A stretch of 64,000 nt of DNA, taken from assembly GCF_005576615.1 (NCBI RefSeq), contig NZ_CP040330.1, positions 3,596,001 to 3,660,000 on the forward strand, given 5' to 3'. Within the stretch, counting starts at the first letter, position 1, and each line of letters opens with the position of its first letter. The notes beneath the pieces were generated by a model. It did not search any database and was not told the origin of the DNA. It worked only from the letters and a program-made list of their open reading frames with translations. Source of the DNA: Natrinema versiforme (GTDB lineage Archaea; Halobacteriota; Halobacteria; Halobacteriales; Natrialbaceae). The position numbers and the translations under genes were made by a program. Positions 29,770 through 54,505 of the stretch are shown here, piece after piece.

Positions 29770-30993
29770 GTCGATGGCGTCGACCAGTTTGTCGACCTCT
29801 TCTTTCGTGTTGTAGACGTAGAAGGATGCTCGAGCGGAGGCTGCGACCCCGAGCTTGTCGTGCAGCGGCTGGGTACAGTGGTCGCCGGCGCGGATCGCGA
29901 CCGCATGGTCGTTCATGATCGAGGCGAGGTCGTGGGCGTGGACGCTCTCGAGGTTGAAGCCGACGAGGCCGCCGCGTTCCGGCCCCGGTTCGGGGCCGTA
30001 GACCTCGACGTCCGGTTCCGCGGTCAGCCGCTCGTAGGCGTAGCGGGCGATCTCCTCCTCGTGGGCCTGCACTCGGTCCATGCCGATCTCCTCGAGCCAG
30101 TCGATGGCGGCGACGAGGCCGACGGCCTCGGCGATCTGGGGCGTCCCGGGCTCGAACTTCCACGGGAGGTCGTCCCACGTCGAGTCCTCGAAGGTGACCT
30201 TGCGGATCATGCCGCCGCCGTAGAGATAGGGCTGCATCTCCTCGAGGAGGGCCTTCTTGCCGTAGAGGGCACCGATGCCGGTTGGGCCGGCCATCTTGTG
30301 CCCGGAGAACGCGTAGAAGTCGGCGTCGATTGCCTCGACGTCGACGGGCCGGTTGGGGACGGCCTGCGCGCCGTCGATGAAGGCCAGCGCGTCGCAGTCG
30401 TGGGCGATATCGACCAGTTCGGAGACGGGGTTGACGGTGCCGAGCGTGTTGGAGACGTGGACCGCCGAGAGCATCGCCGTGTCGTCCGTGATGAGCTCGC
30501 GGGCGTGGTCCATGTCGAGGCGGCCGTCCTCGTCGACCCGGATGTACTTCACGTCGGCGCCGGTTCGCTTGCCGATCTGTTGCCACGTGACCAGCGAGGC
30601 GTGGTGTTCCATCTCCGTGAGGACGACCTCGTCGCCGGGGCCGAGTTCGTTCAGGCCCCACGAGTAAGCGACCAGATTCTCCGCTTCGGTCGTGTTCTTG
30701 GTGAAGATGACCTCCTCGCGGCCGCCGCTCGCGCCGATGAACTCGGCGACGCGGTCGTGGGCGTCCTCGTAGGCGATCGAGGCCTCCTGGCTCAGGTGGT
30801 GGATCCCCCGATGGACGTTGGCGTTCGACTCGCGGTAGTAGTCGCTCATCGCGTCGATAACCGGATCGGGCGTCTGCGTCGTCGCCGCGTTGTCGAGATA
30901 GACGAGTTGCTCGCCGTCGAACTCCCGCTGGAGGATCGGAAACTCCTCTCGGATCGCTCCGACGTCGAGCGCCTCGAGGTCCTGGTGACTCAT
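29746..30993 (-). CDS. sufS: Cysteine desulfurase SufS
   Basis: A 415-aa PLP enzyme mobilising sulfur from cysteine for Fe-S clusters. Motifs: QLVYLDNAATTQTPDPVIDA, the catalytic Lys in FYAFSGHKMAGPTGIGALYG, and the reactive cysteine in AVAIRAGDHCTQPLH (SufS type). It starts MSHQDLEALDVGAIREEFPI at ATG 30993. Its partner sufU lies downstream, separated by the receiver and small membrane genes. The 3' end is duplicated beyond the stop. Confidence 0.95.
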   Translation of the reverse strand: MSHQDLEALDVGAIREEFPILQREFDGEQLVYLDNAATTQTPDPVIDAMSDYYRESNANVHRGIHHLSQEASIAYEDAHDRVAEFIGASGGREEVIFTKNTTEAENLVAYSWGLNELGPGDEVVLTEMEHHASLVTWQQIGKRTGADVKYIRVDEDGRLDMDHARELITDDTAMLSAVHVSNTLGTVNPVSELVDIAHDCDALAFIDGAQAVPNRPVDVEAIDADFYAFSGHKMAGPTGIGALYGKKALLEEMQPYLYGGGMIRKVTFEDSTWDDLPWKFEPGTPQIAEAVGLVAAIDWLEEIGMDRVQAHEEEIARYAYERLTAEPDVEVYGPEPGPERGGLVGFNLESVHAHDLASIMNDHAVAIRAGDHCTQPLHDKLGVAASARASFYVYNTKEEVDKLVDAIDDARQLFS

Positions 30994-49469: not shown

Positions 49470-50603
49470 ATGAGTGAATCGCGTGCGTTCTGTCCCCGGT
49501 GTGGGGACCCAGTTCCCGAGCGGTCGGCGAGCGACGCGAACGACCCGTTGCGGCCCGGTGCGGAGGTCGAACTCTGTGACGCGTGTTACTTCGAGGACTT
49601 CGACTTCGTGGACGCCCCGGACCGGATCGACGTTCGCGTCTGTTCCCGGTGCGGTGCGGTCTACCGCGGCAACCGGTGGGTCGATGTCGGTGCGGAGGAT
49701 TACACGGACATCGCGATCGAGGAGGTCAGCGAAGCGCTCGGCGTCCACGTCGACGTCGAGGATGTCGCGTGGCAGATCGACCCCGAGCAGGTCGACCAGA
49801 ACACGATCCGGATGCACTGTTACTTCACGGGCGTGGTACGCGGAACGCCGGTCGAGGAGCAGGTGACGGTGCCCGTCAAGATCGCCCGCCAGACCTGTAC
49901 CCGCTGTGGACGGATCGCCGGCGACTACTACGCCAGCATCGTCCAGATCCGCGCCGAGGATCGGACCCCGACGACCGAGGAGACGGACCGAGCGAAAGAG
50001 ATCGCGAACCAGATCGTGGCGGACATGGAGGCCACGGGCGACCGCAACGCCTTCGTCACCGAGGTCGGCGAGGTCGACGACGGGCTGAATGTCAAGGTCT
50101 CGACCAACAAGATCGGGAAGAAGATTTCGAACAAGATGATCGAGGAGTTCGGCGGCACCGTCAACGACGCCGAAACCCTCGTCACGGAGGACGAGGACGG
50201 CAACGAGGTCTATCGGGTCACCTTCGCCGTCCGCCTGCCGCCCTACACTCCCGGGGAGATCATCGAACTCGCGGACGACGACGGCGGCCCCGTCCTCGTC
50301 CGCAGCGCCCGCGGCAACCTCAAGGGCGTCCGCGTGACGACCGGCGAGCGCTACGAGGCGAGTTACGAAGAGGGGAATTCGCCCGACGCGCGCAGGCTCG
50401 GCGACCTCGAGGACGCGGCCGAAGCGACGGTCGTCACCGTTGAAGACGACAACGCGGTGCAGGTACTCGACCCCGAGACGTTTCAGGCCAAAACGGTCTC
50501 GCGGCCGGACTACTTCGATCCCGAGGCTGAGACCGTGCCCGTGCTGAAGAGCCGCGCCGGACTGCACATTCTACCCGACGAGGACGACGGGAGCGATGAC
50601 TGA
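49470..50603 (+). CDS. nmd3: NMD3-like 60S/50S ribosome export adaptor homologue
   Basis: A 377-aa archaeal homologue of eukaryotic NMD3, involved in large-subunit maturation. It starts at ATG 49470 with four zinc-binding CxxC pairs (FCPRCGDP, LCDACYFED, VCSRCGAVY, TCTRCGRIAGDYY). The core TNKIGKKISNKMIEEFGGTV and the C-terminal OB-like region (EIIELADDDGGPVLV) follow. It overlaps the downstream methyltransferase by 8 nt. Confidence 0.93.
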   Translation: MSESRAFCPRCGDPVPERSASDANDPLRPGAEVELCDACYFEDFDFVDAPDRIDVRVCSRCGAVYRGNRWVDVGAEDYTDIAIEEVSEALGVHVDVEDVAWQIDPEQVDQNTIRMHCYFTGVVRGTPVEEQVTVPVKIARQTCTRCGRIAGDYYASIVQIRAEDRTPTTEETDRAKEIANQIVADMEATGDRNAFVTEVGEVDDGLNVKVSTNKIGKKISNKMIEEFGGTVNDAETLVTEDEDGNEVYRVTFAVRLPPYTPGEIIELADDDGGPVLVRSARGNLKGVRVTTGERYEASYEEGNSPDARRLGDLEDAAEATVVTVEDDNAVQVLDPETFQAKTVSRPDYFDPEAETVPVLKSRAGLHILPDEDDGSDD

Positions 50604-51966
50604 CGAGGACGCGCCGGAGCCGTCGGCCGACGACGCCCTCGAGCCCGCGGTCGACGAGGTCCTCGAGCGAGCGGAGGCCGACGCCCCGCTGGCTGCGATC
50701 GTCGCGAAAGACCGGGCCGAGACCGCCATCGAGTCGCTTCGCGCCGAGGGGGTCTACGACGAGACGCGGCGCGTCCGAGAGGCGCGAGGCGAACGCGACC
50801 GGGAGGACGCCACCGCAACGCGAGCCGAAGGTGATCGTGAGGACGCCACCGCAACGCGAGCCGAAGGTGATCGTGAGGACGCCACCGCAACGCGAGCCGA
50901 AGGTGATCGTGAGGACGCCACCGCAACGCGAGCCGAAGGTGATCGTGAGGACGCCACCGCAACGCGAGCCGAAGGTGATCGTGAGGACGACCCCGACAGC
51001 GTCGCCCTGCCGGTCACGGAACCGCCGACCGAGACGCGGGTGCTCGAGGTCGTCCGGCAACTCGAGCCCGAGCCGCGGAATCCGGACCTGGAAGACCTAC
51101 TTGCCGATCGGGGCTGGAGCGAGGCCGACCTCGAGTCGGTCCCGGGCTCGTGGGCGGTGATCGGGTCGGTGATCCTCGTGACGGTGCCCGAGGGCTGTCC
51201 CGACGAGGCCGAACTGGGCGAGGCCCTGCTCGAACTCCACGGCGAGGCCGACAGCGTGCTGGCCGACGACGGGATCGCAAACGACGGGCCGGCGGGCACC
51301 TACCGCGAGCCCCGGACCCGGCTGATCGCGGGCCAGCAGGATACGGAGACGATCCACACCGAGCACGGAACGCGGTACGGACTCGACCCCGCGACGGTGA
51401 TGTTCTCGCCGGGGAATCAGGCCGAGCGCGCTCGGATGGGCGACATCGGAAGCGACGACGAACACGTCTTCGACATGTTCGCCGGCATCGGCTACTTCAC
51501 CCTCCCGATGGCCCGAGCCGGCGCGCGGGTGACCGCGACCGAGATCAACCCGACCGCCTTCCGCTACCTGCTCGAGAACGCCGTGCTCAACGACGTCGGC
51601 GACCGGGTCGACGCCTACATGACCGACTGCCGCGATCTCGCCGGGGAGATCGAGGCCGATCGAGTCGTCATGGGCTACTACGGCAGTTCGGACGGCTCGA
51701 GCGACGAGGACGAAAGCCCGGACCACGGCGCGCGCACCGACGAAGCGCACGACTTCCTCGACGACGCCCTCGCGGCGCTCGTCCCCGGCGGCGTCGTCCA
51801 CTACCACGAGGCGACCCCCGAACCGCGGCTCTGGGACCGGCCGCTCGAGCGACTCGAGGCCGCCGGAACCGCCGCCGGGCGCGAACTCGAGGTACTCGAG
51901 AAGCGCCGAGTGAAGAGCCACAGCGCGGGCGTCGCACACGTCGTCGTCGATGCTCGGTTCGAGTAG
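50596..51966 (+). CDS. Trm5/Taw2-like class I SAM-dependent tRNA methyltransferase family protein
   Basis: A 456-aa member of the tRNA G37/wyosine-modifying group. SAM-fold motifs: MGDIGSDDEHVFDMFAGIGY, VTATEINPTAFRYLLENAVL, ADRVVMGYYGSSD. The last replaces the Trm5 NLP motif and is closer to Taw2, which transfers the aminocarboxypropyl group in wyosine synthesis. The N-terminal domain contains five copies of EDATATRAEGDR (residues about 70-129), absent from the family. Coupled to nmd3. Confidence 0.85.
   Translation: MTDEDAPEPSADDALEPAVDEVLERAEADAPLAAIVAKDRAETAIESLRAEGVYDETRRVREARGERDREDATATRAEGDREDATATRAEGDREDATATRAEGDREDATATRAEGDREDATATRAEGDREDDPDSVALPVTEPPTETRVLEVVRQLEPEPRNPDLEDLLADRGWSEADLESVPGSWAVIGSVILVTVPEGCPDEAELGEALLELHGEADSVLADDGIANDGPAGTYREPRTRLIAGQQDTETIHTEHGTRYGLDPATVMFSPGNQAERARMGDIGSDDEHVFDMFAGIGYFTLPMARAGARVTATEINPTAFRYLLENAVLNDVGDRVDAYMTDCRDLAGEIEADRVVMGYYGSSDGSSDEDESPDHGARTDEAHDFLDDALAALVPGGVVHYHEATPEPRLWDRPLERLEAAGTAAGRELEVLEKRRVKSHSAGVAHVVVDARFE
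50803..50982 (+). repeat. Five identical 36-bp in-frame tandem repeats
   Basis: Units starting at 50803, 50839, 50875, 50911 and 50947 are base-for-base identical as read and encode EDATATRAEGDR five times. Perfect identity points to recent expansion. Since the unit length is divisible by three, copy number can change without frameshift. Confidence 0.95.
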
Positions 51967-54066: not shown

Positions 54067-54230
54067 CGTTCGTCTCACGGGGCGGCCGCGTCCTAAATGC
54101 TGCGGACCGTTGCGCCCGCTGCAGCGTTCCGGAGGGACGGACCCGCAGCGGCGTCGAAACCGCCGGCTACCGTCGAGTATCACGCACCTACGGGAAACGA
54201 GCGGCTATCGACGAGGGGGTAGCCGGCCGA

Positions 54231-54240
54231 TTACAAATAC
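54231..54240 (+). promoter_or_regulatory. Promoter element before the tRNA-like gene
   Basis: TTACAAATAC is TATA-like and 26-35 nt before 54266, the right place for a tRNA promoter. Confidence 0.45.
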
Positions 54241-54265
54241 GAAATCCGCCGTCGGATCGACGTGC

Positions 54266-54354
54266 GGAAGGGTCGCTCAGCGGTAGAGCACCGCGGTGCC
54301 ACTTGGTTCCGCGGCGGCATTTCGCCCCGTGGCGTTCAAATCCCACCCCTTCCG
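54266..54354 (+). tRNA. Atypical tRNA-like gene (best anticodon reading GCC, Gly)
   Basis: An 89-nt sequence with a perfect 7-bp acceptor stem (GGAAGGG with CCCTTCC), T8, a textbook D arm (GCTC AGCGGTA GAGC with A14 and G18-G19) and TTCAAAT in the T loop. It departs in three places. The anticodon arm (stem CCGCG/CGCGG) has a 14-nt loop, where TGCCA fits U33-GCC-A37 followed by 7 extra bases. The variable region is 14 nt with a small GGC/GCC stem. The T stem has one extra C (GTGGCG for GTGGG). It may be a pseudo-tRNA, a tRNA with an unusual mini-intron, or contain sequence errors. Confidence 0.45.
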
Positions 54355-54505
54355 CTCACGGTTACGGTATGCCGTGGACGCGGCTGCGAGCCATCGTGCT
54401 CGCGTCGACACGGCGCAGTGCGCCGTGACCGTCACACTCGCCTCCACTCTCCGACGCCCGACATTTTTTGTGCCGACGACCGTCGCCGAGTCGCCCGGAT
54501 CGACG

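Follow-up and report, generated by a model that had tools for sequence, protein, structure and literature searches.

The tRNA-like domain of tmRNA has acceptor and T arms and lacks a normal anticodon arm. In Bacillus cereus, a tRNA-shaped RNA named tRNA-Other is described as acting outside translation; it lies beside mobile DNA, and its deletion alters gene expression (PMC3399842). The t-element of Haloferax volcanii is reported to be a tRNA-like structure located directly upstream of 5S rRNA and a substrate of RNase P and tRNase Z (PMC4326828, PMC4946936). Also described from this species is rancRNA_s194, a 97-nt intergenic, ribosome-bound RNA (PMC6104027) that is encoded at HVO_2011s2 and reported to be absent from other haloarchaea (PMC6104027, PMC3956466). 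The tRNA elbow is documented as a feature recognized by RNase P, RNase Z, several synthetases, and many proteins (PMC4810234).

We identified a predicted 89-nt tRNA-like RNA that lacks an anticodon in the haloarchaeon Natrinema versiforme, within the window (the whole 64,000-nt stretch of DNA that was analyzed; Table 1). tRNA-Other is the nearest idea to this RNA. Both are tRNA-like RNAs unable to translate, as judged here by structure only, but tRNA-Other has a Trp anticodon and is described from some Bacilli (PMC3399842), whereas the haloarchaeal RNA has no anticodon, has a bulged T stem, and occurs in an archaeal order. The t-element is likewise a tRNA-like structure in a haloarchaeon, but it is described as adjoining 5S rRNA; the gene reported here is freestanding: it has a promoter box of its own, and no conserved RNA follows. 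Class II tRNAs (tRNA-Ser and tRNA-Leu) share with it the acceptor, D, and T arms, a variable arm, and often G73, but differ in having an anticodon arm and an unbulged T stem. The likeness to rancRNA_s194 is one of length, as Haloferax members of the new family are 98 nt long. That RNA, which has a C-rich 3' end, was considered as a possible Haloferax member and rejected because it lies at another locus and is reported not to be conserved. ARAGORN called no tmRNA in the window, and we found no entry attributable to this gene in the small-RNA table for H. mediterranei (PMC5852579). A literature search that reached few subscription journals found no description of the family; an earlier listing among t-elements (Holzle 2012) is possible.

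Table 1. Features of the tRNA-like RNA locus (window coordinates).
Feature	Position	Strand	Basis
Promoter element with 16-bp dyad symmetry, GTAGCCGGCCGATTAC; may be an operator or a BRE region	54219..54234	+	Symmetry over copies
Putative TATA-like box TTACAAATA, ~30 nt 5' of the RNA	54231..54239	+	Conserved in alignments
Anticodon-less tRNA-like RNA, 89 nt, discriminator G73 at 54354: GGAAGGG-TC-GCTC-AGCGGTA-GAGC-A-[CCGCGG T GCC ACTT GGT T CCGCGG]-C-GGC-ATTTC-GCC-CC-GTGGcG-TTCAAAT-CCCAC-CCCTTCC-G	54266..54354	+	Rfam tRNA, R1 and R2 scores, conservation; window sequence
Acceptor stem GGAAGGG / CCCTTCC	54266..54272 / 54347-54353	+	7 pairs unchanged in 63/63 Natrialbaceae sequences
D arm GCTC-AGCGGTA-GAGC	54275..54289	+	100% of cells paired; A14, G15, G18, G19 kept
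Hairpin replacing the anticodon arm, CCGCGG-T-GCC-ACTT-GGT-T-CCGCGG	54291..54314	+	Fold; double-sided changes in 7/9 pairs
Short variable arm GGC-ATTTC-GCC	54316..54326	+	Fold; 96.8% of cells paired
T arm GTGGcG-TTCAAAT-CCCAC, bulged C at 54333	54329..54346	+	Straight 5-bp T stem impossible in 162/162
T6 run, possible transcription stop	54464..54469	+	Sequence only

The Rfam tRNA model (RF00005) matched exactly the interval 54266-54354, with 33.7 bits (cut-off 29) and an E value of 1.1e-5 in a 221-base search; a scan of the whole window under fast filters did not detect the element. RF00005 alone passed its cut-off at the locus, and no other Rfam family reached its gathering score there. ARAGORN run on the window called no tRNA at 54266-54354. 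Folding of positions 54264-54357 gave five helices with a minimum free energy (MFE) of -47.7 kcal/mol (z -4.66), and 0 of 200 shuffles folded as well. Features of a decoding tRNA are present, namely a 7-bp acceptor stem, T8, a D arm with G18G19, and a TTCRANT loop (TTCAAAT in the window copy). The initial annotation was right about the acceptor stem, T8, D arm, and T loop, and its 14-nt variable region and single extra T-stem base are also found in the sequence. The CCA end is not encoded. The GGAAGGG acceptor occurs in none of the 57 tRNAs of the N. versiforme genome.

The place of the anticodon arm is occupied by a closed hairpin. A 14-base loop (54296-54309) had been proposed here, and it exists if 5 bp of stem are counted, but the folded arm is a long hairpin with a four-base loop. 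Immediately 3' of the D arm, 5 of 162 distinct copies could form a 5-bp stem closed by a 7-nt loop that has U33; as a control, the same geometry placed at the ARAGORN anticodon is found in 54 of the 57 N. versiforme tRNAs. The loop predicted from the MFE fold is 3-5 nt in 132 of the 162 copies. These results bear on the suggestion of a tRNA-Gly(GCC) gene interrupted after A37 by a 7-nt intron, in favor of which T-GCC-A is at the right place in the window copy. TGCCA is not kept: the triplet differs or is absent elsewhere, the length of the arm varies freely, and the small loops cannot accommodate both an intron and a 7-nt loop. Judged by loop size, these folds do not fit the bulge-helix-bulge borders from which splicing of an archaeal tRNA would restore a normal arm. 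Moreover, the second, normal tRNA-Gly(GCC) gene that the initial annotation proposed to look for does exist, as two canonical chromosomal genes and one on contig C3. We regard the intron reading as hardly conceivable. The predicted closed hairpin would instead make normal decoding impossible.

In contrast to this lost decoding half, the elbow and acceptor half are kept. C48, the base that partners G15 in the Levitt pair of tRNAs, is present in 160 of 162 copies. The T-stem bulge is common to all of them, with a six-base 5' strand that reads GTGGCG (84 copies), GCGTGG (75), or GTGTGG (3). The discriminator is G73 in 127 and A73 in 35. When ARAGORN was run over 20 loci, copies were named tRNA-Arg, -Gly, -Cys, -Val, -Glu, or unknown, or were left uncalled; tRNA finders can thus overlook or misname such RNAs.

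BLAST identified the element in 29 of 29 Natrinema genomes, N. versiforme itself included, at 90-100% identity, which argues against a chance match. Across Natrialbaceae it is present in 107 of 125 genomes and 27 of 29 genera. A filter on the acceptor and T arm was passed by 71 of the 72 copies in the BLAST-derived Natrialbaceae set, yielding 63 distinct sequences; the one interrupted copy that failed (L104) was left out. In L104 the variable arm has grown to a long hairpin and the element is 169 nt long. An intron was considered for this insertion and rejected, as the insertion folds as an enlarged variable arm. The 63 aligned sequences were used to build a model (R1), which gives the window element 106 bits and gives at most 39.6 bits at five loci with ordinary tRNAs (5 of 30 tRNA loci). 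R1 matched in 188 of 392 Halobacteriales genomes and 53 of 95 genera at E<=1e-7. The 20 more distant matches examined all start with GGAAGGG and end with CCCTTCC-R, and are variable in the middle.

We also built a broader model (R2) from 47 diverse members, in an alignment of 46 representatives of the 162 copies and the window copy. At E<=1e-6, R2 matched 203 of the 392 Halobacteriales genomes, and 192 of these are clear by hand count, with a best E<=5e-11. The window element scores 81.5 bits and is the sole match in the N. versiforme genome at E<=1e-6. The lowest clear member scores 65 bits, versus 42-47 bits for the inspected tRNA-Ser-like genes, and no R2 match above 51 bits was found outside Halobacteriales in a phylum sample of 392 genomes. 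A clear copy is absent (by R2) from about half of the sampled Halobacteriales genomes, near-complete ones among them, so the RNA is not essential to the order.

A pattern scan of 84,980 named species genomes returned 116 stretches; 79 of the 80 titles listed for them carry names that we take to be haloarchaeal, and the remaining title is that of an unplaced Euryarchaeota bin. Among the carriers named are Natrinema, Natrialba, Halopiger, Haloferax, Haloarcula, Halorussus, Halorientalis, Halobellus, Halogranum, and Haladaptatus. Searches of plasmids identified one copy, on pHOS100 of Halorientalis sp. IM1011, and neither the phage search nor the viral-contig search returned a copy; one short match, from Acetobacter, was also obtained. 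Two divergent copies per genome occur in Halegenticoccus soli (L220 and L229, the latter near sdhA) and in genomes G146, G174, G181, G188, G212, and G244. Lengths range from 78 to 105 nt in the 162-copy set, where all three values modulo 3 occur, and go up to 132 nt elsewhere, which indicates that the element is not coding. The element appears to be a separate conserved small RNA, and neither a chance match nor a damaged gene.

The pattern behind the species-genome scan and the 162-copy set itself dictates the ends of the acceptor as well as portions of the D arm and T loop; the BLAST-derived Natrialbaceae set is independent of it. In the 63-copy alignment, 97.8% of cells are paired, and 8 pairs and 21 cells are changed on both sides. 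Shuffles gave 2.7 pairs and 3.7 cells, and 0 of 500 reached the observed values, a comparison with the caveat that related sequences may score above their shuffles on other grounds. Pairing fell to 39-58% when the partners were slid by 1-3 columns. Covariation within Natrialbaceae sits in the hairpin at the anticodon place, and the seven acceptor pairs are invariant, so the acceptor sequence, beyond its pairing, probably matters. When distant relatives are aligned, acceptor pairs 2-71, 3-70, and 4-69 and one D-stem pair show double-sided changes and all cells pair; the compensatory acceptor changes are G2-C71 to A-U, A3-U70 to U-A, and A4-U69 to C-G. The variable arm is missing or altered in several non-Natrialbaceae families. 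The tRNA-like fold is under selection, and the anticodon is absent. Kept across an archaeal order, a non-decoding tRNA shape separates looking like a tRNA from decoding.

Relatives with other acceptors were also identified. Six copies (L309, L310, L311, L313, L327, and L328) have a GAAAGGG/CCCTTTC or GAACGGG/CCCGTTC acceptor and a straight T stem; they too have the closed hairpin and no normal anticodon loop. The bulge is thus not needed in every form. One further relative, with a GGTAGGG/CCCTACC acceptor, has a bulged T stem. Genomes G291 and G414 hold both subtypes. Downstream of the subtype copy at L309-L311, ARAGORN calls a tRNA-Gly(TCC) gene.

The initial annotation reported a promoter at the right place, and a conserved promoter-like box, GATTACAAATACGAA, indeed lies ~30 nt upstream in the window copy and its relatives. 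In sequence terms it is a candidate TATA box. By eye, other families have AT-rich boxes upstream at similar spacing. In Natrialbaceae-type copies the box falls within the 16-bp dyad, in which a mean of 10.1 of 16 positions are symmetric over 82 of 84 copies, versus 2.5-6.6 at shifted positions; in this count the TTAC anchor fixes four letters, two of the 84 copies lack the anchor, and three are anchored elsewhere. The dyad GTAGCCGGCCGATTAC is unique in the N. versiforme genome, where GTARNCRNYYGATTAC also matches the dyad site only. A regulon sharing this operator was considered and rejected, given the single occurrence of the dyad in the genome. Mean per-column conservation within Natrinema is 0.96 in the element, 0.88 in the promoter box, 0.74 in the spacer, and 0.73 in the 12 downstream bases. 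The downstream sequence diverges even within Natrinema, and T runs like the T6 run follow several Natrinema copies.

This arrangement bears on the possibility that the element is a processing signal of the t-element kind, at which RNase P and tRNase Z would act to free a neighboring RNA. The kept shell is what these two enzymes read, and Haloferax t-elements are described as being cut by both (PMC4326828). However, no conserved RNA lies 3' of the element, as shown by the divergence downstream, and the element has its own promoter box. As the sole R2 match in the genome, it is also set apart from any 5S-associated element, which would belong to another family. We therefore consider a role as a processing signal very unlikely.

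The neighbors in the window, from Pfam matches, are a DEAD_2/Helicase_C_2 helicase gene on one side and a DUF7561 gene on the other. Elsewhere the setting differs. One flanking protein that was tested matches FAD_binding_2 (Pfam), and from its sequence we take it to be succinate dehydrogenase (sdhA). An sdhA-like motif lies 47-1432 nt upstream on the same strand in 30 of the 78 copies with a non-Natrialbaceae T stem; 38 of the 78 lack the motif and 10 loci are too short to tell. The location near sdhA is conserved in several families. Two of the 30 sdhA-linked copies (L065 and L148) come from Natrialbaceae genera, which suggests that the sdhA side may be the older location.

At 15 of the 162 loci we found partial copies of the 3' end of the RNA (CRANTCCCRCYCCTTCC) on the same strand, 75-267 nt downstream. 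They are sometimes in tandem with hairpin-like stretches between them, at loci that include L137, L155, L201, L255, and L267, and resemble either attachment sites present several times over or the members of a small family of repeats. Their likeness to attachment-site duplications would fit a tRNA pseudogene or remnant that is retained as a place where mobile elements integrate. A pseudogene would not be expected to show compensating changes, nor a D arm and promoter box that are widely conserved, and we judge this explanation highly improbable.

We think it probable that the RNA is an independently transcribed, non-decoding tRNA mimic that acts via proteins that read the acceptor stem and elbow. 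The initial annotation had offered a regulatory tRNA mimic as one option, and this fits a conserved tRNA-like fold without an anticodon. The RNA would be made as a discrete transcript from its own promoter box, and RNase P and tRNase Z may trim the precursor, to which CCA might be added. The invariant acceptor stem and the elbow could then engage one or more tRNA-recognizing proteins, such as a synthetase, a translation factor, or an enzyme that processes or modifies tRNAs. The T-stem bulge would make elongation-factor binding weaker, and together with the absent anticodon it would exclude the RNA from normal elongation. The most likely function would be that of a decoy or regulator of a tRNA-recognizing protein, which we favor over that of an amino acid carrier because the discriminator is inconstant and no tRNA-dependent ligase was recognized alongside. 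Haloferax species carry the element, and gene deletion is routine in H. volcanii, which provides a handle on two questions: which tRNA-binding factors a mimic can control, and whether charged RNAs serve archaea in roles other than translation.

A wider formulation, which we hold to be somewhat less likely than not, is that of a dedicated haloarchaeal non-decoding tRNA, a second kind of tRNA-shaped molecule maintained by descent, the constant acceptor-elbow shell of which either carries an amino acid non-ribosomally or tunes a tRNA-binding machine, with a lower arm that varies as a scaffold. A rival reading is that of a charged tRNA with a non-ribosomal job: an anticodon-independent synthetase, most obviously SerRS in the case of the class-II-like G73 forms, would aminoacylate the RNA, which would donate its amino acid outside translation. 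The invariance of the Natrialbaceae acceptor in sequence, beyond pairing, the combination of G73 and a variable arm in many copies, and the mostly tRNA-Ser-like nature of the next best R2 matches inspected are all in line with charging. Yet A73 is present in 35 of 162 copies, the variable arm is missing in several, and neither the flanking proteins nor a Pfam scan of the window neighbors revealed a recognizable tRNA-dependent ligase. Given the A73 copies, a SerRS substrate is unsupported as a general rule, and overall we consider charging unlikely.

Other observations in this genome concern tRNAs and repeats. The 492-kb contig C3 of N. versiforme holds, at ~21-26 kb (L271), an array of 14 tRNAs with sequences unlike those of the chromosomal tRNAs. 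In the window, ARAGORN called an 85-nt tRNA-Phe(GAA) at 29925-30009 (+), possibly spuriously; a canonical tRNA-Phe is present elsewhere in the genome. An open reading frame at 50596-51966 (+) has several tandem copies of approximately REDATATRAEGD near its N-terminus.
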